DNA of 64,000 nucleotides from contig NZ_CP117439.1 of the NCBI RefSeq assembly GCF_030687575.1, positions 310,001 to 374,000 on the forward strand, given 5' to 3'. The notes under the pieces are model-generated. The model was not told where the DNA came from, did no database searches, and worked only from the letters and a program-made list of their open reading frames with translations. Shown piece by piece: positions 4,745 to 45,400 of this stretch. Origin of the DNA: Pseudomonas sp. FP2309. GTDB lineage: Bacteria; Pseudomonadota; Gammaproteobacteria; Pseudomonadales; Pseudomonadaceae. The position numbers and the translations under genes were made by a program. Each line of letters begins with the position of its first letter. The stretch's first letter is position 1.

Positions 4745-4765
4745 CCTGGCCATGTGCCTGGGTTT

Positions 4766-8429: not shown

Positions 8430-8465
8430 GGGAGTCGTGCGCCTGTGGGAACAGACGCATTATGC

Positions 8466-9374
8466 CTAGTGCCGCTCGGCAAGACACTCGCGCAATGCGT
8501 CCTGCCACGGCGGTTGGCTGACCTGCCATTGCTGTTGCAGGCGACTGCAATTGAGGCGCGAGTTCAATGGGCGCCTGGCCGGTGTGGGGTAGGCACTGGA
8601 GGGGATCGCTTCCAGTTCAGCGCAAGCCTTGCCATCGGCGCGCAAATGCTCGGCAATCGCCTGGGCGAAACCAAACCACGAGGTTTCACCTCGGGCGGTC
8701 AGGTGATAGACGCCCCATTCCCCCGGCTTGCCGGCTTGCCAGCGTTCGATCAACGTGTGGGTGCTGCGGGCAATGGTCCCGGCCCAGGTCGGCGCGCCGA
8801 TCTGGTCGGCTACGATGCGCAGGTGCGGCTTTTCCTGCAGCAGGCGCTCCAGGGTCAGCAGGAAATTCTTGCCGTGATTGGAATACACCCAACTGGTGCG
8901 CAGGATCAGGTACGCGCCGCCCACCGCTGCAATCGCACGCTCGCCGGCCAGCTTGCTCCTGCCGTAGACGCCCAGCGGGTCGGGCATGTCAGCTTCGGTG
9001 TAGGGCGCAGGCTTGCTGCCGTCGAATACGTAGTCGGTGGAGTAGTGGATCAGCGGGATACCCAGCGCCTTGGCCTCTTCAGCCAGCACGCCGGGGGCGA
9101 TGGCGTTGATGGCGAAGGCGACGTCCGGTTCGCTTTCGGCGAGATCGACCGCCGTGTGGGCGGCGGCGTTGATGATCAGGTCCGGGTGGTGGGTGCGTAT
9201 TTGCTTGCGGATGTGCTCGGGGTTGGCCAGGTCCAGTTGGTCGCGGCCCAGGATGATCAATTCGCCAAGGCCATGAAGCTGCTGCTGCAGCGCGCGGGAG
9301 ACTTGGCCGTGTTGGCCGGTGATGAGGATTCTTAAAAGCCTAATCAAGGGAACAGGTCCGCGTCCTTCAGGCAT
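8466..9374 (-). CDS. rmlD: dTDP-4-dehydrorhamnose reductase RmlD
   Basis: A 302-residue short-chain dehydrogenase/reductase that performs the last NADPH-dependent step to dTDP-L-rhamnose. The nucleotide-binding GQHGQV motif and the catalytic YGRSK (YxxxK) are present. Start choice is uncertain. The ATG at 9374 overlaps rmlC by 31 bases and adds nine residues. A TTG at 9347 would overlap the rmlC stop by four bases (TTGA) and give a product starting close to the first beta strand, as in other RmlD proteins. Last gene of rmlB-A-C-D. Confidence 0.9.
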   Translation of the reverse strand: MPEGRGPVPLIRLLRILITGQHGQVSRALQQQLHGLGELIILGRDQLDLANPEHIRKQIRTHHPDLIINAAAHTAVDLAESEPDVAFAINAIAPGVLAEEAKALGIPLIHYSTDYVFDGSKPAPYTEADMPDPLGVYGRSKLAGERAIAAVGGAYLILRTSWVYSNHGKNFLLTLERLLQEKPHLRIVADQIGAPTWAGTIARSTHTLIERWQAGKPGEWGVYHLTARGETSWFGFAQAIAEHLRADGKACAELEAIPSSAYPTPARRPLNSRLNCSRLQQQWQVSQPPWQDALRECLAERH

Positions 9375-9889
9375 TTACCGACCTGGTCTTTGGCAGACAA
9401 GATCGGTGGGCCGTCCAGCTGCCAATCGATATTGAGCTCTGAATCGTCCCATCGAATGCACCGTTCTGCGGAGGGGGTGTAGTAATCCGTGGTTTTATAG
9501 AGAACCTCTGCATAGTCGCTGAGCACTAGAAAACCATGGGCAAAGCCAGGCGGAATCCACAGTTGACGGCTATTGCCAGCAGATAAGCGCACGCTTGCCC
9601 ATTTACCGAAACCGGATGAACCCTGACGGATATCCACCGCCACATCCAACACTTCACCGGCTGTTACTCGAACCAGCTTGCCTTGTGGGTGTTCGATTTG
9701 GTAGTGCAGGCCACGCAGCACACCTTTTTGGGAGCGTGAGTGGTTGTCTTGTACGAATGGCTGCTGCAGCCCAGCGATTTGTGCAAAATCTCTGGCATTG
9801 AAACTCTCGTAGAAAAAGCCGCGTTCATCGCCAAATACCTTCGGCTCGATGATCAATACACCGAGCAACTCAGTGGCGGATACATTCAT
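9344..9889 (-). CDS. rmlC: dTDP-4-dehydrorhamnose 3,5-epimerase RmlC
   Basis: A 181-residue cupin-fold epimerase of normal length. Family motifs are visible: [31 protein letters not shown] (catalytic histidine and basic pocket) and [15 protein letters not shown]. It converts dTDP-4-dehydro-6-deoxyglucose to the L-lyxo form for RmlD. Its start lies 20 bases inside the end of rmlA, so the genes are co-translated. Confidence 0.95.
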
Positions 9890-25494: not shown

Positions 25495-26595
25495 TTGGGT
25501 GCGCTCTCGCCCGTGGAGGCTGCTCAGATCGTACGTTTCCATCAGTTCGCAGACAGCGTTCGAGCTGATGTTACAACCGGTGGTGTCTTGGCTGCAGGGT
25601 GTGTCGATCACGCATCGTATGGAGAAACCGCCGGAATCCGCCGCAGCGTAGAACGACAATTCCCCGAACTCACTGGCGGCTATCACCTGCCACGCTTTGC
25701 CCGGGTTGTCGCCGTGGCCGACGCCCCTGCCGGCGCCGGTATTTGTGACGACTTCCGGCCGCGCTATGCGGTCGACATCGAGGTCATGGGACCAGATGGC
25801 GAGCCAGACACCAAGCTGCCGATCCTGGCCGGCGTGCCGTTGCCGCTGCCTACTGGCGGCGAAGAGATGGGTATCTATGCGTTCCCCGAGGAAGGCACCC
25901 AAGTTGTGGTGTGCTTTGCCTACGGTCTGCCGAATAAGCCATATATCCAAGCCATTTTGCCGCATGGCCTGAGCATGCCCAGAGTGCCGAAGGGGGATCA
26001 GGTGTGGCAGCACAGTGAGGCCTGCCAGCAGCGCGTCGACGCCGATGGCAATTGGCTGCGCCAAACGGACGGCAAGATTCTGGATAAGGCGATCGAGCGG
26101 GAAGTGGAGGCGATGGGCAACACTGAGCGGTACCAGAGCCATAACAGGACCGTGGACGACCACTCAACAGAGTCGGTGGGCGGCATCAAGACGCTTGAGG
26201 CCTTGGGCGCGCTCAAACTGCTGTCGGGCGGATCTGCAAGTCTGGCGGCGGTGGATGATCTACACCAAGCGACTGGGCGGGACTTGAACCTGGTGGTGGC
26301 GCAGAAGCACAACTCCACGGTGGGTGGCGACATGGAGGAAAGGATTCAGGGGCTGCGTAAGAGTGTGGCGTCGGTTAGTCAGCGTCTAATCGCGCCCAAA
26401 ACCTGGCTAGGATCCGAGGCGATTAACTTGTTACATATTATTAGTGAGTTACTGAGCTTGGTAGAGCAGATGAATAAAAGTCTAGCTAGCCATGTGCATG
26501 GGAATACACCGCTACCAAGTAATTCTCATGAGTTTTTTGATTGTTCATTGAAAGCTGCAAGTCTTCTGAATAAGCTAAAATCTATATCTGCTTGA
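25495..26595 (+). CDS. Phage baseplate/tail-spike protein, 5'-truncated prophage remnant
   Basis: A 366-residue frame from a TTG codon. The same frame is open back to 25402 (LPAAGNYNRGYQANLSR precedes the TTG) but holds no ATG, so the original start has been lost. The central part (FRPRYAVDIEVMGPDG ... GIYAFPEEGTQVVVCFAYG ... KPYIQAILPHG) resembles the OB-fold of myophage baseplate spike proteins (gpV/gp5-like), followed by a beta-helix-like region (LNLVVAQKHNSTVGGDMEER). No other tail genes are present, so it is not a working prophage. From about 26400 the base composition becomes AT-rich, as in the genes that follow, suggesting a replaced C-terminus. Confidence 0.65.
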   Translation: MGALSPVEAAQIVRFHQFADSVRADVTTGGVLAAGCVDHASYGETAGIRRSVERQFPELTGGYHLPRFARVVAVADAPAGAGICDDFRPRYAVDIEVMGPDGEPDTKLPILAGVPLPLPTGGEEMGIYAFPEEGTQVVVCFAYGLPNKPYIQAILPHGLSMPRVPKGDQVWQHSEACQQRVDADGNWLRQTDGKILDKAIEREVEAMGNTERYQSHNRTVDDHSTESVGGIKTLEALGALKLLSGGSASLAAVDDLHQATGRDLNLVVAQKHNSTVGGDMEERIQGLRKSVASVSQRLIAPKTWLGSEAINLLHIISELLSLVEQMNKSLASHVHGNTPLPSNSHEFFDCSLKAASLLNKLKSISA

Positions 26596-26644
26596 ATAGA
26601 AGTAGCGACTTGCAGCACTTTATGATTCCAAGATTAACCGTTTT

Positions 26645-27169
26645 TCAATGGTTGTCAGTTTTGAGGATCCACTCGTTGGGGACGTAAGCTGTACTACCTA
26701 TCAGGTCTAATAATCGATCACATTCTGTTGTTGGTGATACCCATATGAGTTCGCCAACGCTTCCTGAAAATTGACCGAGAATTTTAAAAACCGCACGTGC
26801 AGCATTGTCGTTGGATGCAATTATGCTTTTGATCGATAGCGCTGCATCAACTACATGCGCATCTTTCTGTGCAATAGCCTTCTGTGCATCTGTAACTTGA
26901 GATATTTCAATAAATTCGGATATATTTGATGTGGAAATTATATGGTCGATTTTTTTCTTGGCTGTCATTGAGGACTGCCACCTAGTGGAAAAAATAGATT
27001 TGTGTTGCTTCCACTCTTCTTTGAGTTTAGGGCAGAACACGGCTCTTGCGTCTGAGTTTAATATGGCCTGCAAAACACTGCGAGCACCTTTAGATACCGG
27101 ATGCTCTGATAATCCCGCAGCTCGAGCGACATCGGCGTCTACTACGAAGCTCTGGCATTTAATTTTCAT
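26645..27169 (-). CDS. PIN-like domain protein, partner of the upstream ATPase
   Basis: A 174-residue protein from ATG 27169, which overlaps the ATPase stop by 11 bases; GAGG lies 9 bases upstream. A longer TTG start at 27187 is less likely. The first strand FVVDADVARAAG carries D11/D13; E51/E52 (KLKEEWKQH), D103/D108 (KDAHVVDAAL) and D121 (IIASNDNAARAVF) give the acidic pattern and final 'SNDN' turn of PIN nucleases. I infer a metal-dependent RNase or DNase, with no family assigned. It differs from common VapC toxins in lacking a small antitoxin gene beside it; the partner is a large ATPase. AT-rich codon use suggests horizontal origin. Confidence 0.65.
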   Translation of the reverse strand: MKIKCQSFVVDADVARAAGLSEHPVSKGARSVLQAILNSDARAVFCPKLKEEWKQHKSIFSTRWQSSMTAKKKIDHIISTSNISEFIEISQVTDAQKAIAQKDAHVVDAALSIKSIIASNDNAARAVFKILGQFSGSVGELIWVSPTTECDRLLDLIGSTAYVPNEWILKTDNH

Positions 27170-28457
27170 TAATCGCGGCCTCTTCAACGGCGTCGAGATA
27201 TTCTTGCTCTACATCCAGAGCAACGCTGTCAAAATCTTCCGGCCAATCACCAAAAGCGCCAAACTTATCGAGCTTTGACTTCGTTATCTGTGTTTGTCCA
27301 GTTTCGGAGTCTTGTATGAACCAATTCAGGTTTACCAAATTGCCTTTAAGTAAATTCCTCGCTACTAAAATCTGAATTCCTCTTATCAGTATAGAGCTGT
27401 GAGTCTCGATGATTACATTCACGCCGCTCTCGTTGACAGCGCTTGCGATGATTTTTGAAAGTTCATATTGCGCGCGTGGATGTAGGTGAAGTTCAGGTTG
27501 CTCTATGTATACAACTTGTCCTCGCTTAGCTGTGAGTAATGCGACTAAGACGGGAAGTGTTTGTGATACTCCGAAACCAACATCAGCGATATTTACATAA
27601 TCAGATTTGGTATTGTTGCACCCTTTATGTCTGGATATCAGTATTTCAAGGCGCGTATCATTGATTATAGAAACGTCGATCGAGGTGGCCAGTCCTAAAT
27701 CTTTCAATTGCTGAATCAATGTGTTGAATTTTTTTTGAAGACCTCTAGTGTTTTTCCAACGGTGAATTATGCTGGCAACATATCGTTCAAAAGAGCCGGG
27801 AAATTTAGAGTCAGAAGATGCTACCTTATAAGATCTTTCTGGGTTTCCACGCAGTCCGGGGACATGAATCAAGTCGGAAGTTAGTTTTTTAAGACTTTCC
27901 GCAGGTAGTACGCCCGCCGAGAAAGGGGTGCGTTTGTTTGAGTGTAGTTTTATACCTAGAAAGCATCTATCTCTTATGACTTTCCATTCCAGTCCTTCAT
28001 AATGCTCCATTATTCTTTTAAATGGGCCGAAGTTGTCCATGTTTAGTATCGGCTCAATATCAGAAGATTTCATGCCGACCCGTATTTCGGAACCTTGATG
28101 AAAGTCTCCACCACTCATAGCCATCTTATCAATGGTTATGCCACGCCTAGCACTGAATTTATAAGAGGCTTTTACTGCTTTCTCGTTATCTGTCTCTAAT
28201 GTTACGCTAAATAACGAAGAGTTTGAGCCTGGCACTTTCGAAATTATTTCGCTAGAGTCTGTTAGTCTTACATTGGCGCCGTCTAATAGAAGGGAGCCCG
28301 AGTCAAACTCATTCTCAAGCGACTGCTTCATTAATAATAGTGGCTGCATAAAGCTGGACTTGCCTGAGCTATTAGCTCCAGCCAATATAGTCAAGCCACC
28401 TATCTGTATGGAGCGCGGCTCGGCTATGGATTTGTAACCTTCAATGGTGATTTTCAT
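27159..28457 (-). CDS. AAA (ABC-like) ATPase with DUF3696-like C-terminus, candidate defence protein
   Basis: A 432-residue ATPase of the SMC/OLD-like AAA_15/AAA_21 group. It has Walker A G27-S34 (GANSSGKS), the YxGxLR-like element HVPGLRGNPERSY (198-210), an ABC-type signature region DVGFGVSQTLP (292-302), Walker B VVYIEQPELHLHP (315-327) and the switch histidine H353 in IIETHSS. The C-terminal GAFGDWPEDFD (400-410) recalls the DUF3696 module. There is no TOPRIM domain, so it is not a full OLD nuclease. A consensus AAGGAGGTG ribosome site precedes the ATG. Coupled to the PIN-like gene, it probably forms a two-component ATPase-nuclease system; anti-phage function is inference. Confidence 0.8.
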   Translation of the reverse strand: MKITIEGYKSIAEPRSIQIGGLTILAGANSSGKSSFMQPLLLMKQSLENEFDSGSLLLDGANVRLTDSSEIISKVPGSNSSLFSVTLETDNEKAVKASYKFSARRGITIDKMAMSGGDFHQGSEIRVGMKSSDIEPILNMDNFGPFKRIMEHYEGLEWKVIRDRCFLGIKLHSNKRTPFSAGVLPAESLKKLTSDLIHVPGLRGNPERSYKVASSDSKFPGSFERYVASIIHRWKNTRGLQKKFNTLIQQLKDLGLATSIDVSIINDTRLEILISRHKGCNNTKSDYVNIADVGFGVSQTLPVLVALLTAKRGQVVYIEQPELHLHPRAQYELSKIIASAVNESGVNVIIETHSSILIRGIQILVARNLLKGNLVNLNWFIQDSETGQTQITKSKLDKFGAFGDWPEDFDSVALDVEQEYLDAVEEAAINEN

Positions 28458-29083
28458 CGCACCTCCTTGGAAATTTTCTCTTTATATCATTGGTTTGTGT
28501 AGGAAAGAAGTACCGTCTAATTTGGAACGCGTCGATTCTCGACTTGCTTAAGGGCGCGCGTTGATGGCCAAAGGTCTTATGCCCTGAGACGACGTTGCCT
28601 CGTTCGTTGGTATCTGGGTTTAGGAGTCCTCTCGTGAAGACTCCGAATTACAACTCCTTTCCTCGAATGGCATGCACGTTTCGGGTAGCGTATCTAGAAA
28701 AAATAGATGAAAAAGCACTTATCCCCCTCCCGCCGACGGGGTTTGTGTCCTTTTTTTGTGCAAAGTCGGAAGTAATGCAAACGAAGCTGCAGCCCAAGCG
28801 GGCCGTGGGGCTCTGCGGGTGATCGGCAATTTCACAGATTGCAAAGTTTTGAAGAGAAATGCAGCGCGGCTGCACAACAGTGCGATGGGTGTACTTCAAC
28901 AGCGGAAAGCTGAAGTCCCCGGCCCCATTGGGCGAAAAAATGAAAAACACCGTAATTCGTTGGTTTTCATTCTCGGATGGGCTCTTTTGAAGGCGCCTCG
29001 CTGATCAATGGCCGAAACGCGTTTCTGCTCTGGGGCCCCCGAATACTGTGGGCTGTAGCCAATGCGCCCCATTACATAGAGTT
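28458..29083. other. Gene-poor stretch upstream of the ATPase
   Basis: About 626 bases without an ORF that I can support. The ATPase promoter should lie at its left end. A short inverted repeat GGAGTC/GACTCC is seen near 28621-28643 and another, AATGAAAA/TTTTCATT, around 28937-28970. Composition shifts back from AT-rich to average GC along this stretch, so it may be a junction between two insertions. Confidence 0.5.
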
Positions 29084-29443
29084 TCACACCGATTCGGAGG
29101 CGGCCAAGCGAAGGTGGGGCAGCTCATTCAGCTTCTGCAGGCGCGTGAATTCATTCTGCACGACAGGGATCAGCAGGCGTTCCAGCGCGTCACGCAGCTT
29201 TGTTGCCTGCTCCTCGGTCAACTTTTTAACCGAGCCGGTCACGCTGCTGGCGCAGAGGACGTTGGCGGGGAGGATGCCCAACGCATCCATGGAACCGTCA
29301 ATGTAGCCGCCCAGGTATTCCTGCCGTTTGAACAGTACGGAGCTTTCAGGGGCTTCCTGGTAATCCCAATGAACCTCCCAGGTCGAACTGTTCTTCTTAA
29401 TTTCGATGATGGGTTCCGCTGCTTGGGACGCTGGCTTACGCAT
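29084..29443 (-). CDS. Small protein of unknown function (island gene)
   Basis: A 119-residue protein starting MRKPASQAAEPIIEIKK and preceded by AAAGGA at suitable spacing. It has a hydrophilic N-terminus, a compact middle (WEVHWDYQEAPESSVLFKRQ) and a helical, charged C-terminus (KLTEEQATKLRDALERLLIP). There is no signal peptide or membrane segment. I recognise no family. Its GC content is close to the chromosome's, unlike the ATPase/PIN pair. It lies immediately beside the CTGACA repeat block, whose leftmost repeats would lie in its promoter region. Confidence 0.6.
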   Translation of the reverse strand: MRKPASQAAEPIIEIKKNSSTWEVHWDYQEAPESSVLFKRQEYLGGYIDGSMDALGILPANVLCASSVTGSVKKLTEEQATKLRDALERLLIPVVQNEFTRLQKLNELPHLRLAASESV

Positions 29444-29518
29444 GCTTGCTTCCTTTGATCAGTGCGCGGCTGAGCATTCTGAGCATTAGCTTCGAGGCGT
29501 CCGCATTTATGTTTATTT

Positions 29519-29830
29519 AGGTTGACCCCCAAATCCCTGTCAGATCATGGATATCTGTCAGGGAGTGCCCTGCAGGCCCCGTGTTTACTGGGGTTCAGCT
29601 CTGACAGCGGGGTTGGATGTTTGTGTCAGTTTCTCCCTCTAAAATAAAAAGCCCTTGTAAATCAAGTGCTTGAAAACAGCAAATCTGACATTGCTGTTTT
29701 GTCAGGTTTTGACAGGTCGCTGACAGCTTTCTGACAGTGATGCAAAACGCTGAAAGGCTTGAAATACAAGGGTTATAGAGGAGATGAATATAAATCTGAC
29801 AAATCTGACAGGCTTTTAAGGGGTCAACCT
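29519..29830. repeat. CTGACA iteron-like cluster bounded by an 11-bp inverted repeat
   Basis: AGGTTGACCCC at 29519-29529 and its exact reverse complement GGGGTCAACCT at 29820-29830 enclose ten exact copies of CTGACA or TGTCAG (starting 29538, 29556, 29601, 29624, 29685, 29700, 29720, 29731, 29796, 29805) plus a one-off copy at 29710. About 0.1 copies would be expected by chance. A 10-bp perfect hairpin (29673-29682 with 29691-29700) carries one CTGACA in its loop. Such density suggests binding sites for a replication, excision or regulatory protein of a mobile element, but no such gene is present nearby. Confidence 0.75.
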
Positions 29831-30017
29831 TAATTTTTTTTCGCTTCGCATAAGGGGTGTTGGGTCATACGCGTACACATCGCAAAGGCTTTAAAACCTC
29901 GGACTCTCACACCGCGCTACTTCGACGTTTTGCCTTTCCTGCACCATTGATCCTGACGAACAATCGATGAGAAGAGTCCAATCTCATTGGTAGCTTGGGA
30001 CGCTTATGGCCTGCGAT
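29831..30017. other. Non-coding stretch after the repeat block
   Basis: Together with the repeat block this makes about 570 bases without a gene. An AT-rich run (TAATTTTTTTTCG) follows the right inverted repeat. Nothing else could be supported. Confidence 0.4.
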
Positions 30018-30836
30018 TCAGGAGGGGGAGTTGAAGGCACGATTTCTTCGATCCAAAATCACGGTAATGACGAATGCAAGCCCGAACAACGGAAGCATAA
30101 CGAAAACGGATGAGAATCCAGCATAGGCAAGCTCTCCGCTGGCCTTGCCTACGAAATAAACACCAGCGCTGAAAAGCGTAAATGTACTTAGGATTCTCTC
30201 AGATAACCCAAGCTTGATTGGCTTCGCAAAACCAGGTAGCGGGAGGAAAAACAGGTAGAGCCCTAGACTCAGTACGGATATGGCAGCGTAGAGAAACGCT
30301 ACCAGCGGTCTTGTTTTAACATTAGACACGTCTTCAAAAATGATATCCCGCACCCCGGAGATCCGAGCTTTCGCTGTCAGATCTAATGGGCCGGAGCTCA
30401 CCAGGGTAATTTTGACTTCATCGAGCGGGTTCGAAAGAAAGGGCATGACCTTCAGCTGATTATCATCAATTGATATTTTCACTGGAATATCAGGTGGCTC
30501 TGACCCTGTGATCTGCGCAGTGATCAGCTTCGCATCGTTAAGGGTGCGCACTTGGAGCGGTGTTTCGAAGCTGCCGGTCGGGATTGGCTTCGAACCGGTA
30601 TTGATGATTGCCAAGGAGTAGATGTAGGGATCTTCGACTTTGGTTCCATTCACGACTATCTGTAGATCGTGAATCTTGGAATCGGAAGGGAGCTCAAGAG
30701 AGGACGAGGCGGCGAGGCGAACTGTCAACGAATAAGCAGACAAGTCTGCCTTCCAGAAATAAACAGGTACTACGACGGCGGCGATCGCCAATACCGTAGT
30801 GAGGGCGAACTTCCAATCTAGAATTTTCCCTTTCAC
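30018..30836 (-). CDS. Membrane protein of unknown function next to tRNA-Thr
   Basis: A 272-residue protein with a GTG start and a strong GGGAGGAG ribosome site. It has an N-terminal membrane helix (about 11-27), an extracytoplasmic beta-rich domain (about 30-175, e.g. YIYSLAIINTGSKPIPTG) and three C-terminal membrane helices (about 180-200, 215-232, 240-262), ending in a short basic tail. No known family is recognised. It is the last gene before the tRNA and is probably island cargo. The layout, a single outer domain clamped between membrane helices, would suit a sensor or membrane effector, but nothing shows this directly. Confidence 0.7.
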   Translation of the reverse strand: MKGKILDWKFALTTVLAIAAVVVPVYFWKADLSAYSLTVRLAASSSLELPSDSKIHDLQIVVNGTKVEDPYIYSLAIINTGSKPIPTGSFETPLQVRTLNDAKLITAQITGSEPPDIPVKISIDDNQLKVMPFLSNPLDEVKITLVSSGPLDLTAKARISGVRDIIFEDVSNVKTRPLVAFLYAAISVLSLGLYLFFLPLPGFAKPIKLGLSERILSTFTLFSAGVYFVGKASGELAYAGFSSVFVMLPLFGLAFVITVILDRRNRAFNSPS

Positions 30837-30920
30837 TGCTCTCCTCCCTAGACGATCGCCTCGAAGGCATGAATGAGCGTTTCGCGCATGAGTTGTTACG
30901 TGGCTTGTTACGTATTACGC

Positions 30921-30953
30921 AAAAAACAAAGGCCTGCATCGCTGCAAGCCTTT
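30921..30953 (-). terminator. Terminator of tRNA-Thr
   Basis: On the minus strand, AAAGGCTTGCA (from 30953) pairs with TGCAGGCCTTT (ending 30928), one mismatch, followed by GTTTTTTG. It lies 10 bases beyond the tRNA 3' end, so island insertion has not removed it. Confidence 0.75.
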
Positions 30954-30962
30954 GATTTTAAA

Positions 30963-31038
<76 letters not shown>

Positions 31039-31052
31039 GTGTTAGGGCGACG

Positions 31053-31080
31053 ATTATAGCGACTGCCAGAGTTCTGTAAA
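31053..31080 (-). promoter_or_regulatory. Promoter of tRNA-Thr
   Basis: On the minus strand TTTACA (31075-31080) and a perfect TATAAT (31053-31058) are 16 bases apart, 15 bases before the mature tRNA 5' end. Confidence 0.7.
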
Positions 31081-31159: not shown

Positions 31160-32536
31160 TCAACGCTCGTGCAATGCCTCGGCGCGGGATTTGATGATGG
31201 GTTTGAGCAGGTAGCTCAGGATGCTTTTCTTGCCGGTGATGATGTCCACCGAGGCGACCATGCCCGGGATGATCAGCAGGGGCTTCTCGTCGGTGCCCAG
31301 GTGGCTGCGGTCGGTGCGCAGTTTGATGACGTAGAAGGTGTTTTTCTTCTCTTCGTCCATCACGGTGTCGGCACCGATTGTTTCCAGCTTGCCTTTGAGG
31401 CCACCGTAGATGGTGTAGTCGTAGGCGGTGAATTTGATCATGGCCTCCTGGCCAGGGTGCAGGAAGGCGATGTCTTGTGGGCGGATCCGCGCTTCCACCA
31501 GCAGGGTGTCGTCCAGTGGGACCACTTCGGCCATGTCGCTGCCGGGCTGGATTACGCCGCCGACGGTGTTGACCAGCATCTGCTTGACGATGCCGCGCAC
31601 GGGGGAGGTGACCATGGTGCGGCTGACGCGGTCTTCCAGGCCCTTGGAGGTGGCCTGGGCCTTGCTCAGGTTGGTGCGTGCTTCGTTCAACTGGGCCAGG
31701 GCGTCGCTGCGGAACTTGCCGCGGGTCTCGTCGATTTTGCGCTGCACTTCGTTGATGGCGGCCTGGGCGCGGGGGATGGCCAGGGTGGTGCCGTCGAGCA
31801 TGCCGCGGGTTTCAACTTCCGAGCGTTTGAGGCGCAGCACTTCCACCGGCGAGATCGCACCTTGCTGTACCAGGGGTTCGGACATGCCGATTTCCTGGCG
31901 CAGCAGGTTCAGGCTGTTGCGGTACTGGTCCTGCTTGGAGCTGAATTCACGCAGTTCCTGCTGGCGTTGCAGCAGTTGCTGTTGCAGCCCGCCAATTTCG
32001 TCTGCCAGTTGCTGGCGGCGGCTCAGGTACAGCGATTCTTCGTTCGAAGCCTGGTTGGGCACGGCTTTGCGCGCGGCTTCGGTGATGTTCAGCGGGCGGT
32101 TATCGACTTCTGCACTGAGGCGCTCCACGCGCAGTTCCATGGCCACGCGGTCGGCTTCGGTTTCGCCGACGTTGGAGGCGAATCGCGTGTCGTCCAGGCG
32201 CACCAGCGGCGCACCGGCTTCGACGATCTGCCCTTCGTGCACATAGATCTGAGCGACGATGCCGCCTTCCAGGTTCTGGATTTTCTGGATGCGTGACGAT
32301 GGAATGGCCTTGCCTTCGCCCTTGGTGACTTCGTCGATGATCGCGAAATGTGCCCACAGCACCAGGAACACAAAGAAGCCGATCACGCCCCAGATGGTCA
32401 GGCGCACGATGCGCGGTGCGTCGTCGATCAGGGCCTTTTCGACTTCGGGCATAGGCTGGCCGTCGAGCGAGGCACTGCCTTTGAAGTAGCGGAAGATGAC
32501 GTCTTTCCAACGGCCTGGGCCGGACTTAAGCAACAC
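31160..32536 (-). CDS. lapC: Type I secretion membrane-fusion protein LapC (HlyD family)
   Basis: A 458-residue inner-membrane/periplasmic adaptor. One membrane helix (about 50-70, LTIWGVIGFFVFLVLWAHF) is followed by a lipoyl-like half motif (GGIVAQIYVHEGQIVEAGAPL), long coiled-coil helices (about 130-310) and the C-terminal beta barrel with RSHLGTDEKPLLIIPGMVASVDI, the HlyD family signature. It bridges LapB and LapE so that LapA can be exported in one step. The start overlaps the lapB stop by 11 bases. Confidence 0.93.
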   Translation of the reverse strand: MLLKSGPGRWKDVIFRYFKGSASLDGQPMPEVEKALIDDAPRIVRLTIWGVIGFFVFLVLWAHFAIIDEVTKGEGKAIPSSRIQKIQNLEGGIVAQIYVHEGQIVEAGAPLVRLDDTRFASNVGETEADRVAMELRVERLSAEVDNRPLNITEAARKAVPNQASNEESLYLSRRQQLADEIGGLQQQLLQRQQELREFSSKQDQYRNSLNLLRQEIGMSEPLVQQGAISPVEVLRLKRSEVETRGMLDGTTLAIPRAQAAINEVQRKIDETRGKFRSDALAQLNEARTNLSKAQATSKGLEDRVSRTMVTSPVRGIVKQMLVNTVGGVIQPGSDMAEVVPLDDTLLVEARIRPQDIAFLHPGQEAMIKFTAYDYTIYGGLKGKLETIGADTVMDEEKKNTFYVIKLRTDRSHLGTDEKPLLIIPGMVASVDIITGKKSILSYLLKPIIKSRAEALHER

Positions 32537-34679
32537 TGATCTGCCCCTTTTTCAGCGCTTCCATCACGGCCGCTTTTGGACCGTCTGCGAGGATCTGGCC
32601 ACGGTCGATCACCAGCAGGCGGTCTACCAGGCTCAGCAGCGAAGCACGGTGGGTGACAAGAATCACCGTCTTGTTTTCGATCACCGCCTGCAAGCGCTGT
32701 TTCAGGCGCTCTTCACCGGTGTTGTCCATGGCGCTGGTGGGTTCATCCAGCAGCAGAATGGGTGGGTTCAGCAGCAGCGCACGGGCGAGGGCGACGTTCT
32801 GGCGTTGGCCGCCGGAAAGGTTTTGCCCGCGCTCGCCCACTTGCAGTTCGTAGCCTTGGGGGTGCAGCCTGGCGAATTCGTGCACGCCGGCGAGTTCTGC
32901 CGCTTGCAGCACCATTTCGTCATCCACGTAGCGCGCACCCGACACGAGGTTGTCGCGCAAGGTGCCGGCCAGCAGTTGAATGTCCTGGGCCACGTAGCCG
33001 ATGTTATGGCGCAATTCGCTGACGTCGATCTGGCGGATGTCTACACCGTCCACCAGCAACGAGCCGGAGTCCGGCTGATACAGGCCCACCAGCAGTTTGG
33101 CCAGCGAGCTTTTGCCCGAGCCGCTGCGGCCGATGATGCCGATTTTCTCGCCGGGGCGAACAGTCAGGTTAATGCCGCGCAGTGCCAGGTTTTGCTGGTT
33201 CGGGTAGGTGAAGTCGACCTCGCGGAAAGCCATCGCGCCTTGCAGCGTTTTACGGCTGAGCGGGCGCTCGTCGAAGTTGCGCTCTTGCGGCAGCTCCATC
33301 ATCTGGTCCACCGAGACCATCGTCACCTTGGCTTGCTGGTAACGGGTCAGCAGGCCCGACAACTGGGCCAATGGGCCGAGTGCGCGGCCGCTGAGCATGT
33401 AGCACGCCACGAGGCCGCCCATGCTCAGGGTGCCGTCGATGATCTGGTACACGCCAAAGATGATCATCGCTACGCCGGCCACTTGCTGGATCAGCAACGT
33501 GATATTCATCGCCAGGCCGGACAGCACTTTGACTCGCAGTTCCAGGCGGCTGAGGGTGCCAATGGTTTGTTCCCACTGGTATTGGCGTTCGCTCTCGGCG
33601 TTGTTGACCTTCACCGCATCCAGCCCGGCGAGGGTTTCGATCAGGCTCGATTGCCGCTCGGCGCTCAGGGCCATGGTGCGCTCAAGTGTCGCGGTCAGCG
33701 GTTTTTGCAGGAAATGGCCGATACCCAGGGCCAGCGGGAACGCAACGATGGGAATCCACACCAGGTGGCCCCCCAGCAACGCGATCACGCCGAGGATGAT
33801 CAGGGTGAAGGGCAAATCGATCAGGCTGGTGAGGGTCAGGGACGTGAGGAAGTCGCGCATCCCCTGAAACTCGTGGATGTTGGAGGCATAGCTGCCGACG
33901 CGCGCCGGGCGCATTTTCATGGCCATGCCCACGATGCGCTCGAAGAGCGTCGCGGAAATGATCAGGTCGGTTTTTTTGCCCGCAAGGTCCAGGCACAGAC
34001 TGCGCATGCTCTTGAGCAACAGGTCGAACAGGTAGGCGCCGCAAATGCCGATGGCCAGCACCCACAGGGTGGCGGTGGCCTGGTTCGGGACCACGCGGTC
34101 GTACACGTTCATGACAAACAGCGGTGCGGCCAGCGCGATCAGGTTGATCACCAGGCTGGCGGCAATGGCGTCGGCGTACAGCCAGCGCGAACGCTTGAGG
34201 GTGTCTTTGAACCACGAGCGCGCGCGCGGGATCAGCGTGCCGCTGGTGACGTCAAATTTATGTTGCGGTTGGGCGAAGAAAACCCGGCCGCTGTAATCTT
34301 GACTCAGTAGTTCGCGGGTGACCTGAACTTCGCCGCCGTCGCTCTCGCTGAGCAGCAGACGGGCGGTATCACCCTCCCAGCCCAACAGCACCGCACAGCG
34401 GCCTTCCTTTAATAGCAGTAACGCCGGCAGGGCAATGGTTGGGATCTGCTCCAGCTTGCGCTGCAGCAAACGCCCCTGCAAACCCGCGCGGGCCGCTGCA
34501 CGGGGCAGCAGATCGGCGCTCAGGCGCTGCCCAGCCAGGGGCAGGCCCGTGGTGAGCATCGCCCGGCTCGCGGGTTTGTAATGCAGGGAACAGAGAGCCA
34601 ACAACCCGTCCAGCAACGGGTCGTCATGCTGAGCGCGCGGGTCGTGGTTGAGTTGCGCCAAACCTATTTCAGAATCCAA
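32526..34679 (-). CDS. lapB: Type I secretion ABC transporter LapB
   Basis: A 717-residue exporter half-transporter. Residues 1 to about 145 form a C39-like peptidase domain; no catalytic QxxxxxC motif is evident, as expected for transporters of RTX adhesins that are not processed during export. Six membrane helices occupy about 165-450. The ATPase domain has Walker A GRSGSGKSS, signature LSGGQRQ and Walker B ILLLDEPTSA. It powers LapA export through LapC and LapE. It is co-oriented with lapE, 45 bases downstream of it. Confidence 0.94.
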   Translation of the reverse strand: MDSEIGLAQLNHDPRAQHDDPLLDGLLALCSLHYKPASRAMLTTGLPLAGQRLSADLLPRAAARAGLQGRLLQRKLEQIPTIALPALLLLKEGRCAVLLGWEGDTARLLLSESDGGEVQVTRELLSQDYSGRVFFAQPQHKFDVTSGTLIPRARSWFKDTLKRSRWLYADAIAASLVINLIALAAPLFVMNVYDRVVPNQATATLWVLAIGICGAYLFDLLLKSMRSLCLDLAGKKTDLIISATLFERIVGMAMKMRPARVGSYASNIHEFQGMRDFLTSLTLTSLIDLPFTLIILGVIALLGGHLVWIPIVAFPLALGIGHFLQKPLTATLERTMALSAERQSSLIETLAGLDAVKVNNAESERQYQWEQTIGTLSRLELRVKVLSGLAMNITLLIQQVAGVAMIIFGVYQIIDGTLSMGGLVACYMLSGRALGPLAQLSGLLTRYQQAKVTMVSVDQMMELPQERNFDERPLSRKTLQGAMAFREVDFTYPNQQNLALRGINLTVRPGEKIGIIGRSGSGKSSLAKLLVGLYQPDSGSLLVDGVDIRQIDVSELRHNIGYVAQDIQLLAGTLRDNLVSGARYVDDEMVLQAAELAGVHEFARLHPQGYELQVGERGQNLSGGQRQNVALARALLLNPPILLLDEPTSAMDNTGEERLKQRLQAVIENKTVILVTHRASLLSLVDRLLVIDRGQILADGPKAAVMEALKKGQISVA

Positions 34680-36424: not shown

Positions 36425-39400
36425 ATGAGCAGCGTTGCGGTCGTCAAAAGCATTGTCGGTCAAGTGTTCGCAGTTTCCCCGGAAGGGATTCGTCGCCTGC
36501 TCGTAGAAGGGGATCGTCTATTCGCCGGGGAACAGGTCGATACCGGCGCATCGGGCGCCGTCTCTCTGGAGTTGGCCGACGGCCGTACCATCGATTTGGG
36601 GCGTGACACCCAGTGGAGCGCAAGCGCGCCTGACTCGGTCACCGACCTGAGCGCCGCCACTGCTCAAGCCGCACCGTCCGTCGCCGAACTGCAGCAAGCC
36701 ATCGCTGCCGGTGCCGACCCGACCCAAGACCTCGAAGCCACCGCGGCAGGCCCAACGGCTGCTGGTTCCGACGGTGCCGTCGGTGGCGGCCACAGCTTTG
36801 TCGTGCTGGAGGCCACCGCAGGCGCGGTTGACCCCACCATTGGCTACCCGACGACCGGCTTGAATGCCGGTGATGCAGTGAACAGTACCTTCACCGGCGC
36901 CAACAATAATGGCGTCGACCCGCGCAACGTCACCATCACCCTGACTGCCACGCCAACCATCACCGAAGCCGGTGGTGTTGTTGTCTATACGGTGTTTATC
37001 ACCCAGGCGCCGACCAGCGACCTCACCGTGACCTTGTCCAACGGCCTCTCTGTCGTGATCGCTGCCGGCCAGACCTCGGGTGCACTGAACGTCACGTTTG
37101 CTGGTAACGACACGCCTTACCTGGACGCCTCTTCGATTTCCGCCACCATTGCCGGCACCTCCGGCGGCGGCAACCTGATCATCACCACCGACCCGACGCC
37201 GGCGGTGACGCAGGTCAACGACACCATCGACACCACCACCGTCACACTGACTGCGACTGCATCGGTGGATGAGGGTGGCAAGATCGTCTACACCGCGACC
37301 GTGAACAACGCCGCGCAGACCGACGTCACCATCACGCTGTCCAACAACACCACTATCACCATCGAAGCCGGTAAAACCACGGGCACCGTCAGCGTCGATA
37401 CGCCGGCAAACCTGGCCGACGGCAAAGACCTGACCGTCAGCGCCACCATCACCGGTGCGAGCGGCGGTAACTACGAAAACCTGGCGATCAACCCGGAAGC
37501 CGCCACGACCACAGTGGTCGCTGTCGACGATCCGAGCGTGCTGGTCGCGGACACCAACACCGTTGTCGAGGATCAGGCCGCCACTGGCAACGTGCTGAGC
37601 AATGACAGCGACATCGACAACGTGCTGACCGTCGCGACGTTTACCGTCGACGGCAACACGTATGCCGCGGGCAAAGTCGCCGTTATCGAAGGTGTCGGCT
37701 CCATCACCATCGGTGCGGATGGCGCGTATGTGTTTAACCCGGCCAAGGATTTCAACGGTGAAGCGCCGCAGATCGGCTACACCACCAATACCGGTTCGAG
37801 CAGCACGCTGGACGTGACGGTGACGCCGGTCAACGATGCGCCGGTGGCTGAAGCCACTACTGCGACCGGTGCTGAAGACCCAAGCGTAGGCATCGCGGTC
37901 AAACTGTCCGCCACCGACGTGGACAGTCCGACGGACGTGAAATCGTTCACCGTCGGCACGCCAACCAACGGCACCTTCTACACCGACGCGGCGATGACCA
38001 AACCGGTGACCGGTTCCATTGACGCGGTCAACGGCGAAGCCACCGTTTACTTCAAACCGAACGAAAACTTCCACGGCACCGCGGACTTCACCTACACCGC
38101 GACCGACGGCGGCAACGCTGACGGCAGTAGCCCACTGACTTCGGCGCCAGCTAACGGCACCATCACCGTGACTGCGGTCAACGATGCGCCGGTGGCTGCG
38201 GAAACTGCTGCGACCGGTGCTGAAGACCCAAGCGTAGGCATCGCGGTCAAACTGTCCGCCACCGACGTAGACAGCCCGACGGACGTGAAATCCTTCACTG
38301 TCGGCACGCCTACCAATGGCACCTTCTACACCGACGCGGCGATGACCAAACCGGTGACCGGTTCCATTGATGCGGTCAACGGCGAAGCCACGGTTTACTT
38401 CAAACCGAACGCGGACTTCCACGGCACCGCGGACTTCACCTACACCGCGACCGACGGCGGCAACGCTGACGGCACCAACCCGCTGACCTCGGCGCCAGCC
38501 AGCGGCACCATCACCGTGACTGCGGTCAACGATGCGCCGGTGGCTGCGGAAACTGCTGCGACCGGTGCTGAAGACCCAAGCGTAGGGATCGCGGTCAAAC
38601 TGTCCGCCACCGACGTAGACAGCCCGACGGACGTGAAATCCTTCACTGTCGGCACGCCTACCAATGGCACCTTCTACACCGACGCGGCGATGACCAAACC
38701 GGTGACCGGTTCCATTGATGCGGTCAACGGCGAAGCCACGGTTTACTTCAAACCGAACGCGGACTTCAACGGCACCGCGAACTTCACCTACACCGCGACC
38801 GACGGCGGCAACGCTGACGGCAGCAGCCCGCTGACCTCGGCTCCAGCCAACGGCACCATCACCGTGACTGCGGTCAACGACGCGCCGGTGGCTGATGCCA
38901 CGACTGCGAGCGGTGCTGAAGATCCAAGCGTAGGCATCGAGGTCAAGCTGTCTGCCACCGACGTAGATGGCGTGGCGGACGTGAAATCCTTCACCGTCGG
39001 CACGCCTACCAATGGCACCTTCTACACCGACGCGGCGATGACCAAACCGGTGACCGGTTCCATTGATGCGGTCAACGGCGAAGCCACGGTTTACTTCAAG
39101 CCAAACGCGGACTTCAACGGCACGGCGAACTTCACCTACACCGCCACCGACGGCGGCAACGCTGACGGCAGTAGCCCGCTGACTTCGGCGCCAGCCAACG
39201 GCACCATCACCGTGACTGCGGTCAACGACGCGCCGGTGGCTGCGGAAACTGCTGCGACCGGTGCTGAAGACCCAAGCGTAGGCATCGCGGTCAAACTGTC
39301 CGCCACCGACGTAGACAGCCCGACGGACGTGAAATCGTTCACCGTCGGCACGCCAACCAACGGCACCTTCTACACCGACGCGGCGATGACCAAACCGGTG

Positions 39401-42400
39401 ACTGGTTCCATTGATGCGGTCAACGGCGAAGCGACTGTTTACTTCAAACCGAACGAAAACTTCCACGGCACCGCGGACTTCACCTACACCGCGACCGACG
39501 GCGGCAACGCTGACGGCACCAACCCGCTGACCTCGGCTCCAGCCAACGGCACCATCACCGTGACTGCGGTCAACGACGCGCCGGTGGCTGCGGAAACTGC
39601 TGCGACCGGTGCTGAAGACCCAAGCGTAGGCATCGCGGTCAAACTGTCCGCGACCGACGTAGACAGCCCGACGGACGTGAAATCGTTCACCGTCGGCACG
39701 CCAACCAACGGCACCTTCTACACCGATGCGGCGATGACCAAACCGGTGACCGGTTCCATTGACGCGGTCAACGGCGAAGCGACCGTTTACTTCAAACCGA
39801 ACGAAAACTTCCACGGCACCGCGGACTTCACCTACACCGCCACCGACGGCGGCCCGCTGACTTCGGCGCCAGCCAACGGCACCATCACCGTGACTGCGGT
39901 CAACGACGCGCCGGTGGCTGCGGAAACTGCTGCGACCGGTGCTGAAGATCCAAGCGTAGGCATCGCGGTCAAACTGTCCGCGACCGACGTAGACAGCCCG
40001 ACGGACGTGAAATCCTTCACTGTCGGCACGCCTACCAATGGCACCTTCTACACCGACGCGGCGATGACCAAACCGGTGACCGGTTCCATTGATGCGGTCA
40101 ACGGCGAAGCCACGGTTTACTTCAAACCGAACGCGGACTTCAACGGCACCGCGAACTTCACCTACACCGCGACCGACGGCGGCAACGCTGACGGCAGCAG
40201 CCCGCTGACCTCGGCTCCAGCCAACGGCACCATCACCGTGACTGCGGTCAACGACGCGCCGGTGGCTGATGCCACGACTGCGAGCGGTGCTGAAGATCCA
40301 AGCGTAGGCATCGAGGTCAAGCTGTCTGCCACCGACGTAGATGGCGTGGCGGACGTGAAATCCTTCACCGTCGGCACGCCAACCAATGGCACCTTCTACA
40401 CCGACGCGGCGATGACCAAACCGGTGACCGGTTCCATTGACGCGGTCAACGGCGAAGCCACGGTTTACTTCAAACCAAACGCGGACTTCCACGGCACCGC
40501 GGACTTCACCTACACCGCGACCGACGGCGGCAACGCTGACGGCACCAACCCGCTGACCTCGGCTCCAGCCAACGGCACCATCACCGTGACTGCGGTCAAC
40601 GACGCGCCGGTGGCTGATGCCACGACTGCGAGCGGTGCTGAAGATCCAAGCGTAGGCATCGAGGTCAAGCTGTCTGCCACCGACGTAGATGGCGTGGCGG
40701 ACGTGAAATCCTTCACCGTCGGCACGCCTACCAACGGCACCTTCTACACCGACGCGGCGATGACCAAACCGGTGACCGGTTCCATTGACGCGGTCAACGG
40801 CGAAGCCACCGTTTACTTCAAGCCAAACGAAAACTTCAACGGCACCGCGAACTTCACCTACACCGCGACCGACGGCGGTATTACTGGCAACGGCAGCCCG
40901 CTGACTTCGACCCCAGCCAACGGCACCATCACGGTGACTGCGGTCAACGACGCGCCAGTACTGGGCAACGCTTCGACCAACGCATTCGGCGACACCTACA
41001 TTGAAGGCAAGCCAGGCGGCTACGTGGCGGCGACCTTGACCGTCAGCGACGTCGACAACAGCACCCTGCAAAGCGCCAAAGTCACACTCGTCAACCACCT
41101 GGCAGACGATGTGCTGATCGCAGATGTCAGCAACACCAAAATTGCAGTCAGCTACGACAAAGCCACTGGCATCCTGACCCTGTCTGGTGAAGCCACCAAG
41201 GCGGAATACCAGGAAGTCCTGCGTTCGGTGCACTTCGCCAGCGAAAGCGAGAACCCGGACCCGGCCAATCGCACCCTGACCATCACCGTCAACGACGGTC
41301 AGCTGGATTCGGCACCCGTGACCTCTGTGGTGAACGTGGTTCCGGTGAACGATCCGCCTGAGGTCAAGTTCGACAGCACCACGTTCACTGAACAAAAAGA
41401 CGCGGTCGCGCTGGTCGAAAACCTGACCATCAAAGACGTCGACAACACCACCTTCAGCAAAGTCGTGGTCACCGTCGACAACCTGGCTTCGGGTGATGTG
41501 CTCAGCAATACCGACGTGCTCAAGGCCCTGGCCGTTGCCGGCATCACCATCACCCAGAGCGGCAGCGCCGCCGACGGGAAAATCGTCTACACCCTCACCA
41601 GCGACTCGGCGACCGGCAGCAGCGCCGCCGACTTCGTCAAGGTGGTTGAAGCCATCACCTTCCAGAGCCCGGGCGACAATCCTGTCGGCACTGATCGTAC
41701 CGTCACCATCGATGTGACTGACGTCGGCGGCGGCAACCTGGATCGCGAACCACCGGAAACCGGCAGCGCCACCGGCAAGGTCACTATCGACCTGTTCAAC
41801 GACGCGCCGATTGCATCGGCCGACAACACCACCGCCGATGAAGACCATACGGCCAAGATCGTGCTGGACGGCAAGGACGTGGACGGTACCGTCTCCAGCT
41901 TTGTCATTACTACCTTGCCGGAGAACGGCAAGCTGTACAGCGACGCCACGCTGCAAACCGAACTCAAAGTCGGCGATTCGGTGCCAGCGGGTGCCGACGG
42001 CAAGGCCGCGGTTTACTTCGCCCCGACCGGCGACTGGAGCGGCAAAACCGAACTGACCTTCACCGCGGTCGACAACGGCGGTAAATCGAGCACCGTAACC
42101 ACAACTGACATCACGATCGCGCCGGTTACCGACACCCCGCACCTGGGCCTGCTCGGCGGCGGCCCTGTGACCTCGATCAACTTCGACGGCGCCAACCTCA
42201 ATGGTTCGTGGGGCGACGTCGCGGTAGGTAATGCTAACAACCCGGCCGTCAATGGCACCCAGAGCACTCCGTGGCTCACGGGTAATGCCGACGGCCAAGT
42301 CGAAATCGGCCAAAGCAGCATCTACGGCGTAGAGACCCCAGGCAACAGCCAGGTCATCGAGCTTGAGAAAAACGCCGGCGACGACTCCAGCCTGTACACC

Positions 42401-45400
42401 ATCATCAAGGCGGAAGCTGGCACGGCGTACACCATCTCGGTCGACTACTCGCCGCGTGCGGGTGCCGAGAACAATTCGGTGATCGACGTATTCTGGGGCG
42501 GCGTCAAAGTCGGCACCCTGGACACCACCACCGTTGGCATGAAGACTTACACCTTCGTCGTGCCGGTCACCGCTGACGGCGATGCCAAGCTCGAATTCAA
42601 AGCCCCGGCTGGCGAGGCAAACAACTCGTTGGGCGGCGTGCTGGATAACATCAACGTCACCCAGGTGCTGAACACCGGCCTGGAAGACCATGCGATCAAG
42701 CTGTCGACCATCGACGCCTACGCCACCGACAAGGATGGCTCCGAGACGCTCAAGCTGGAAATCAGTGGCGTCCCGCTCAACGCGACCATCACCGATGGCA
42801 CGCCGGGTCACACCTTCACAGCGACAGCTGGCAATCAAAGCGTCGACATCAGCGACTGGAACAAGGCCACCCTGGTCTTCAACCCGGCGGAAAACGCCAA
42901 CGGCCTGGTGAACCTGACTGTCACTGCGACTGCGCAGGACGGCACCGCTGATCCGAAATCCGAGTCGATCAACCTGCCGATCAATGTGATTGCAGTGAAT
43001 GATGCACCGGAAGCCATGGCCACTACCGCGACCGGTTCCGAAGATCCGGCCCAGGGCATTGAGGTCAAACTTTCGGCTACTGATATCGATGGCGTGGAGA
43101 ACGTGAAATCGTTCACCGTCGGCACGTCGACCAACGGCACGTTCTACACCGACGCGGCCATGACCAAGCCAGTGACGGGCGCTATTGATGCCACCAATGG
43201 CGAAGCCACGGTGTACTTCAAGCCAAATGCGAACTTCCACGGCACCGCGGACTTCACCTACACCGCGACCGACAGCGGCAACGCTGACGGCAGCAACCCT
43301 CTGACTTCGGCGCCAGCCAACGGCACCATCACCGTGACTGCGGTCAACGACGCGCCGGTGGCTGCGGAAACTGCTGCGACCGGTGCTGAAGACCCAAGCG
43401 TAGGCATCGCGGTCAAGCTGTCCGCGACCGACGTAGACAGTCCGACGGACGTTAAATCGTTCACCGTCGGCACGCCTACCAACGGCACCTTCTACACCGA
43501 CGCGGCGATGACCAAACCGGTGACCGGTTCCATTGACGCGGTCAACGGCGAAGCCACGGTTTACTTCAAACCGAACGAAAACTTCCACGGCACCGCGGAT
43601 TTCACCTACACCGCCACCGACGGCGGCCTGCTGACTTCGGCGCCAGCCAACGGCACCATCACCGTGACTGCGGTCAACGACGCGCCGGTGGCTGCGGAAA
43701 CTGCTGCGACCGGTGCTGAAGACCCAAGTGTAGGCATCGCGGTCAAACTGTCCGCGACCGACGTAGACAGCCCGACGGACGTGAAATCCTTCACTGTCGG
43801 CACGCCTACCAACGGCACCTTCTACACCGACGCGGCGATGACCAAACCGGTGACCGGTTCCATTGACGCGGTCAACGGCGAAGCCACGGTTTACTTCAAA
43901 CCGAACGAAAACTTCCACGGCACTGCGGACTTCACTTACACCGCCACCGACGGCGGCAACGCTGACGGCAGTAGCCCACTGACTTCGGCGCCAGCTAACG
44001 GCACCATCACCGTGACTGCGGTCAACGATGCTCCGGTGGCTGAAGCCACTGCTGCGACCGGTGCTGAAGACCCAAGCGTAGGCATCGCGGTCAAACTGTC
44101 CGCCACCGACGTAGACAGTCCGACGGACGTTAAATCGTTCACCGTCGGCACGCCTACCAACGGCACCTTCTACACCGACGCGGCGATGACCAAACCGGTG
44201 ACTGGTTCCATTGACGCGGTCAACGGCGAAGCCACCGTTTACTTCAAGCCAAACGAAAACTTCAACGGCACCGCGAACTTCACCTACACCGCGACCGACG
44301 GCGGCAACGCTGACGGCAGTAGCCCACTGACTTCGGCGCCAGCTAACGGCACCATCACCGTGACTGCGGTCAACGATGCTCCGGTGGCTGAAGCCACTGC
44401 TGCGACCGGTGCTGAAGACCCAAGCGTAGGCATCGCGGTCAAGCTGTCCGCCACCGACGTAGACAGCCCGACGGACGTGAAATCGTTCACCGTCGGCACG
44501 CCAACCAACGGCACCTTCTACACCGACGCGGCGATGACCAAACCGGTGACCGGTTCCATTGATGCGGTCAACGGCGAAGCCACGGTTTACTTCAAACCGA
44601 ACGCGGACTTCAACGGCACGGCGAACTTCACTTACACCGCCACCGACGGCGGCAACGCTGACGGCACCAACCCGCTGACCTCGGCTCCAGCCAACGGCAC
44701 CATCAACGTGACCCCGGTCAACGATGCGCCGACTGCGAGCAATGGCCACATAGAAAGCAGCGAAGACACTTCAGTCGAGCTGAAATGGTCGACGTTCGGG
44801 GTCAATGATGTCGATTCCACGGACCTGAAAGTCGTCTTCACCAGCCTGCCCAGCGGTGCCATTGAGTACAAAGTCGACGGTGTTTGGGTCCAGCTCAACG
44901 CAGCTGATCTGAAAACCGATACGTCGCCGGGCAAGGCCTTCAGCCAGGCCGACTTCGACAATCACAATGTGCGTTACAGCCCAGCAGCCAACGAGTCGGG
45001 TGATAGCAGCTTCGGCAACACCGGCGTCGGTAACAAGCAGGGTGATTACACCGAGCTGAAGTTCCAGGCTACCGACGGCCAGCTCAACAGCGACACTCAA
45101 ACCATCACCGTGGATATCCACCCAGTGACGGACGTTCCTGTCGTGACGGTCGGCTCGTTCGGTGACGTGCCAACCGGCTTGACCATTCAAACCTGGACCG
45201 GCGGGAACCTGCCTGGTGCATTGGGTACGAACGGTAATGGTGTTGTTCAGTCCAGCGATTTGATCCGGGTCATCAACGCCCAAACCCCTGGCAGCGCAGC
45301 CTCCACGGGTGTGACCGCAAACGTGAGTAACGGTGATGTGGTGGAGCACACTGCGACCAAAGTCTCTGGCCTGATCTACCTCGAAGCCGGCAAGAGCTAC

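Follow-up and report, generated by a model that had tools for sequence, protein, structure and literature searches.

The gene pair and its prophage setting

The window analyzed here (64,000 nucleotides of Pseudomonas sp. FP2309, NZ_CP117439.1, positions 310,001 to 374,000) lies within a single 5.66-Mb contig and has its nearest named DNA matches in Pseudomonas and Pseudomonas phages. On its minus strand it carries two overlapping genes. Gene A (27159-28457; 432 aa, ATG start), the first of the pair, encodes an OLD/Rad50-type ABC ATPase, and gene B (26645-27169; 174 aa, ATG start) encodes a PIN-fold protein, predicted to be a ribonuclease effector. The end of A and the start of B share 11 nt (27159-27169), and translational coupling is likely. 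The GC content is 45.7% at 26001-28000 and 48.7% at 28001-30000, compared with 55-67% in the remaining 2-kb bins of the window. An initial annotation of this DNA had described an AT-rich, overlapping gene pair on this strand, and its coordinates, strand, overlap and low GC content were all correct. A scan for promoters and terminators was uninformative (5 and 3 sites, with 4.6 and 1.9 expected by chance).

A decayed P2-like (Peduoviridae) prophage at a tRNA-Thr (tgt) carries the pair as cargo, near the end of the phage genome. The "accessory island" of the initial annotation is thus a P2-like prophage remnant. What is left of the prophage (25629-31017) comprises a baseplate gene, the cargo pair, the joined phage ends and an attachment segment. 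The P2-type baseplate gene (Phage_base_V; 25495-26595, plus strand, with phage homology from about 25629) is the last late gene of the prophage; its segment 25629-26401 has 86% DNA identity to a late gene at the end of phage UFJF_PfPro. The identity of the gene to phi3, where the relative of the UFJF_PfPro gene is annotated as baseplate, is 72%. Adjoining the pair are the joined ends of a P2-like phage record (28698-29915): 28698-28734 corresponds to the right end of the UFJF_PfPro record and 28725-29915 to its left end, at 94%. This junction is likely the cos region, with the matching block of phi3 about 250 bases inside the record end. An attachment-type segment (30893-31017), 93.6% identical to UFJF_PfPro 1860-1984, covers the 3' part of the tRNA-Thr gene (30963-31038, minus strand), the presumed integration target. 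The same tRNA-Thr was found in four of five related genomes compared, with different adjoining genes, and no second att copy stood out inside the window. Other parts of UFJF_PfPro gave no blastn match to the window, which therefore lacks the remaining structural genes of that phage as well as its replication and integrase genes; the tblastx part of the prophage comparison refers to the 60 matches listed.

After the same baseplate gene, phi3 carries HicBA (HicAB) on the opposite strand in the cargo slot, and UFJF_PfPro has a glycosyltransferase gene on the same strand after its late gene. According to the excerpted text of Rousset et al. (PMC9122126), P2-like phages carry anti-phage cargo beside cos.

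A 272-aa protein (30018-30836), membrane-like by eye, stands at the place of the UFJF_PfPro gene 1270-1836; PADLOC gave no match for it and Pfam none above cut-off, and it is perhaps another cargo gene. An AT-rich stretch with repeated tgtcag/ctgaca-type words (29480-29840), read by eye, adjoins a phage gene at 29084-29443 and may serve in regulation or replication. In a Pseudomonas metagenome-assembled genome (locus L002, span 4765-9813) about 3 kb separate the pair from a tRNA-Thr-like segment, window positions 30946-31062 corresponding to 4877-4765 of that locus. A related genome (L190, 13493-13557) holds a second copy of the tRNA-Thr 3' region, at 82% and about 10 kb from the tRNA gene, which resembles an att repeat around a different inserted element.

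The ATPase encoded by gene A

The product of A matches the Pfam families AAA_15 (92.5 bits, cut-off 32.1) and AAA_21 (86.1 bits, cut-off 27). Its description in the initial annotation as DUF3696-like was dropped as a label, because the score of 12.5 bits falls short of the DUF3696 cut-off of 22 and amounts to a weak resemblance only. Encoded on the minus strand are a Walker A motif (GANSSGKSS, residues 27-35 with K33; 28353-28379), an ABC signature region (DVGFGVSQ, residues 292-299; 27561-27584), a Walker B motif (VVYIEQPE, residues 315-322; 27492-27515) and a switch histidine (ETHS, residues 351-354; 27396-27407). Conservation was assessed in 87 A/B pairs, namely the pair of the window and 86 kept after pairs with A at or below 280 bits or B at or below 80 bits had been dropped. 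K33 is found in 84 of the 87, with three gaps, and S298, Q299, E322 and H353 are each present in all 87. The complete motif set originally reported, with K33 placed correctly, is present in A and near-invariant in these pairs. With these four motifs in an AAA_15/AAA_21 fold, A belongs to the OLD/RecF-type ABC ATPases, its Walker B reading EQPE.

Position 320 is glutamine in 84 and glutamate in 3 of the 87 pairs, a count that partly reflects search bias. We take this to be the position at which ABC ATPases usually carry the catalytic glutamate. As a family-specific mark EQPE is unusable, since it is shared by all 68 viral ATPases that fall outside the family (see below); these outsiders had been retrieved with the pattern QPE[LI]HLHP or G[DE]WPEDF, and YIEQPELH was one of six patterns in the genome scan.

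The predicted structure of A (AlphaFold2, pLDDT 89) has SMC/Rad50 heads and PtuA of Septu and retron-Eco7 among its structural neighbours. TOPRIM is absent among the eight Pfam families returned for the 432 aa of A at E 1, and A was not classed as an OLD nuclease of class 1 or 2, which is defined by a C-terminal TOPRIM in the same chain.

Protein B is a predicted PIN ribonuclease

The AlphaFold2 model of B (pLDDT 92), compared with known folds, shows a PIN protein, as the initial annotation had surmised from its acidic residues. The nearest solved folds are VapC, SMG6 and protein-only RNase P, which are RNases or toxins. The assignment rests on structure prediction because the score of B against Pfam PIN_3 (16.7 bits) is below the cut-off of 27. 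A Foldseek search of the PDB returned nothing at E 0.001 or better, the best match (0.0026) being a PIN protein, and in a sequence search against solved structures the best match (0.0054) was an uncharacterized protein (3eur), with VapC6 and Nob1 at 0.1. Among 22 relatives at E 0.1, two matched PIN_3 and three the PIN-like Zc3h12a NYN family, but LacI was also matched by three. A tblastn search with B gave no match in plasmid records or in phage records.

Four PIN acidic residues are encoded on the minus strand: D11 (27137-27139), placed correctly from the start, E52 (27014-27016), D103 (26861-26863) and D121 (26807-26809). They are kept in 85, 87, 84 and 83 of the 87 pairs, respectively, and by homology are the predicted active site of B.

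Pairing of A and B across genomes

When species genomes were scanned with A alone, 131 relatives were confirmed, and the best 80 of these were kept. Judged from record titles, these 80 of 131 come from Proteobacteria, Cyanobacteria, Acidobacteria, Planctomycetes, Actinobacteria, Chloroflexi, Poribacteria, Latescibacterota, methanogenic archaea and others. A B-like frame lies directly downstream of A in 76 of the 80 loci; three of the four B-less loci (L026, L072, L075) run into a contig end, and in the fourth (L051) B begins but is then interrupted. With start codons assigned by script, B starts between -38 and +15 nt from the stop of A in 74 of the 76 loci, and at +49 and +82 in the other two. 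The pair is thus more than a chance juxtaposition, because pairing, order and overlap recur in many phyla.

The viral contigs, from which the best 80 of 111 matches were kept, give the family a sharp boundary. Twelve ATPases reach 482-640 bits with the A profile, and B stands beside 11 of them; the exception (L085) lies at a contig edge. None of the remaining 68 exceeds 186 bits, and B was found at E 0.01 beside none of them, although one (L101) stops right after A. In the reverse direction, a search of 292 cyanobacterial genomes with B gave 11 matches, with A adjoining in 10 and the 11th being a fragment of B; three of these genomes (G490, G493, G494) had already contributed L007, L013 and L016 to the A-seeded set. 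Near-duplicate loci are present in these counts, e.g. L091/L092 and several Anabaena-type cyanobacteria.

Within the family, then, pairing of A and B is near-obligate, the reverse of an ATPase usually occurring without the second gene, and promiscuity of A in its choice of partner was rejected for the family as sampled (76/80, viral 11/12, cyanobacterial 10/11). The distance matrices of A and B are correlated (Mantel r 0.83, above every one of 2000 permutations), which common descent of linked genes explains as well as contact between the proteins does. Near its home the pair is rare: among 57 relatives, and again among 369 genomes of the class, it occurs in one, each time the window's own genome, and A was found in none of the 56 other relatives at E 1e-40. 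What emerges is a widespread ATPase/PIN family whose members are annotated mostly as "AAA family ATPase" and "hypothetical protein".

Gene B is broken more often than A in the loci sampled. An interrupted B lies beside an intact A in seven A-seeded loci (L005, L049, L051, L054, L061, L062 and L068, with L054 near a contig end) and in two of the B-seeded cyanobacterial set (L200, L207). No intact B without A was seen; eight of the 11 cyanobacterial matches are intact, and all eight have A. The A-seeded loci were found through A and are therefore biased towards intact A; the B-seeded set was not found through A, but is small. This pattern of decay is in keeping with a nuclease that brings costs or no benefit once its ATPase is lacking.

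Neighbourhood of relatives

Restriction-modification (R-M) genes lie immediately upstream of A, on the same strand, in 5 of 20 cases in which the upstream gene was scanned individually. These 20 were same-strand long frames chosen by eye, ten of them compared with Pfam and ten with PADLOC. Pfam identified HsdR (L012, L029), HsdS (L045) and a RE_endonuc-domain protein (L059), and PADLOC a type II methylase (L004) and a weaker type IV restriction match (L079). Among the matches listed, N6_Mtase occurs in the flanks of 5 of 32 loci (L012, L029, L045, L047, L081; selected by hand from coordinates), compared with 0.42 expected from 166 matches in 207 Mb that include pieces of single genes (Poisson 7e-5). 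L029 and L047, whose contig numbers do not agree with their record names, were matched by position, strand and gene cluster. Since the family was selected for this test post hoc, once seen, and two pairs of loci are alike (L012 and L029 are both Accumulibacter, and L047 and L081 have a similar arrangement), a fair count is three or four independent events.

In the viral loci, genes within about 1.1 kb of the pair encode an integrase (L087, L094, L095), the terminase small subunit (L091, L092) or tail fibres (L086). We also compared 118 neighbour proteins, part of 734 called by a simple longest-first rule, with PADLOC; no PADLOC family listed matches more than three of them, and families of an ordinary kind occur as often as those of defence. 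That many neighbours of the relatives are non-defence genes counts against a role in defence.

Comparison with known systems

In PADLOC 2.0, B matches no model even at E 1, and neither A nor B reaches a cut-off in NCBIfam; a match to an already named system, which would have contradicted the novelty proposed for the pair, was thus not obtained for B in the former or for either protein in the latter. Searches of an open-licence library found no paper naming the A/B family. The protein of PMC5490813 turned out to be of the PIN-PhoH kind and distinct from this one.

PARIS (AriA and AriB) resembles the pair in having two genes, an AAA_15/AAA_21 ATPase with a small separate nuclease, and in being phage or satellite cargo. 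The scores of A, 92.5 and 86.1 bits, exceed the PARIS thresholds given in the excerpt of PMC9122126 (AAA_15 32 or AAA_21 27). However, AriB is a DUF4435/TOPRIM protein and B a PIN protein without a DUF4435 match at E 1, and membership in PARIS was rejected. In PARIS the tRNase AriB is held and then released by the AriA ATPase, as the excerpt of PMC12409363 describes. Septu and retron-Eco7 PtuAB likewise combine an OLD-like ATPase, PtuA, with a separate nuclease, but PtuB is an HNH protein, while B is PIN by fold and has no HNH match; A scores 15.8 bits on the NCBIfam retron Ec78 PtuA model (cut-off 500), and Septu membership was also discarded. PrrC and RloC share the principle of an RNase under the control of an ABC ATPase, although their nuclease is a HEPN domain fused to the ATPase and B is a separate PIN protein; in the part of PMC3710099 available, a table places them often in R-M operons, whereas the text calls RloC unlinked to one.

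A precedent is in a 2026 paper (PMC12839542), which, in its excerpted text and citing earlier reports, describes OLD-ABC ATPases near BREX paired with HNH, PD-(D/E)XK or PIN nucleases. The BREX-adjacent OLD-ABC/PIN endoRNases belong to the same pairing class as A/B and were predicted from gene neighbourhoods; the comparison is by description, the excerpt containing neither sequences nor a family definition. The pairing had been proposed as undescribed, and this needs a qualifier because the OLD-ABC/PIN class is in print there. PIN effectors have been validated in other architectures, DS-3 and DS-5 (excerpt of PMC13092281).

Proposed function and alternative explanations

On balance, we think that the pair is probably a prophage-borne two-gene anti-phage module acting by abortive infection, in which A senses infection and controls the predicted RNase B. 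Computed observations behind this proposal are the kinds of protein, their near-obligate overlapping pairing and co-divergence, the conservation of acidic residues in B and of nucleotide-binding residues in A, the location among prophage cargo and, in some relatives, the linkage to R-M genes. For the mechanism we infer an A-B complex, RNase activity, an RNA target, phage sensing and an abortive outcome. A, an OLD/RecF-type ABC ATPase that itself has no nuclease domain, would as an ATP-bound oligomer serve as both sensor and scaffold and would control the predicted PIN-fold ribonuclease B. A phage trigger would cause A to free or activate B, which would cut cellular RNA, most likely tRNA or rRNA; translation would stop, and phage production would end at the cost of the cell. 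The anatomy of A and B parallels that of AriA and AriB as excerpted in PMC12409363. The initial annotation had envisaged a PIN nuclease effector restrained or activated by the ATPase; the PIN fold and the pairing hold up, and the anti-phage role is proposed from context.

A more specific version of this proposal we regard as tentative and rather doubtful: the pair may be an unnamed, near-obligate two-gene anti-phage system in which the EQPE ATPase, hydrolysing ATP slowly or not at all, would form an ATP-bound cage around a PIN RNase of an undescribed family, opened by a phage trigger. The B-type PIN family comprises 415 clusters. If this version is true, the pair would be a PIN counterpart of PARIS and Septu, present in bacteria, archaea and prophages.

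The main rival, which we consider unlikely though still a serious contender, is that the pair is a toxin-antitoxin or addiction module of the prophage, with B a VapC-like toxin held by A as antitoxin, selected for maintenance of the element and protecting against phage secondarily. In VapBC the controller gene comes first and the PIN gene second, overlapping, and the order of A and B is the same; phi3, moreover, carries HicAB in the same slot. The decay pattern also speaks for such a module: broken B with intact A recurs and lone intact B is lacking (8/8 cyanobacterial intact B have A), as expected if B is harmful without A. However, the broken-gene counts are small and the A-seeded loci favour intact A, and A sits in R-M operons in several genomes. 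Membership in VapBC itself was rejected, because B shares the VapC fold but has as its partner an ABC ATPase of 432 aa in which Walker A, signature and switch histidine are intact, and no small DNA-binding antitoxin of the VapB type. The roles in abortive infection and as toxin-antitoxin are not mutually exclusive.

Less probable again is a defence system in which B cuts DNA or phage-specific RNA, so that phage nucleic acid is restricted and the host survives. PIN-fold and FEN-type nucleases belong to a common fold class, A resembles the DNA-handling Rad50/SMC heads and relatives are linked to R-M genes, but the nearest solved folds of B are, as noted, RNases or toxins.

Another reading, very improbable in our estimation, makes the pair a divergent branch of Menshen that kept NsnB and exchanged the other genes for a PIN effector. 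The top PADLOC match of A is indeed Menshen NsnB (198.7 bits, residues 2-409; PADLOC output states no cut-off). In the excerpt of PMC10952713, Menshen consists of a DUF262 gene and a nuclease predicted to be of the OLD type. Its partners have no PADLOC match in B (at E 1) or in the two other window neighbours scanned, and membership was rejected, NsnA and NsnC not being found beside A. Among the 118 neighbours of relatives, NsnA and NsnC are likewise absent from the 25 families listed out of 160 matched, and the gap on the A profile between the viral family ATPases (482-640 bits) and the other 68 (at most 186) also argues against a branch of this kind. Very improbable, too, is a housekeeping or regulatory RNA-processing pair outside defence, carried by prophages by happenstance: unremarkable families do make up many of the 118 neighbours, but the patchy spread, the prophage cargo position, the R-M linkage and the repeated decay of B run counter to it.

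If the pair does serve in defence, as we favour, PIN would join TOPRIM, HNH and HEPN as an effector under the control of OLD-type or related ABC ATPases, and the idea of interchangeable ATPase phage sensors with swappable effectors would become directly testable. The pair, two genes of about 1.8 kb, is easily cloned and tested.

Other features of the window

Beyond the prophage remnant, a single frame of 4382 aa (36425-49573) contains three arrays of tandem repeats, each with a unit of 348 bp (116 aa) and with 9.1, 4.7 and 4.1 copies, respectively. It is perhaps a giant secreted adhesin. Near it, the translations at 31160-34679 have the look of an HlyD-type and an ABC-type exporter.
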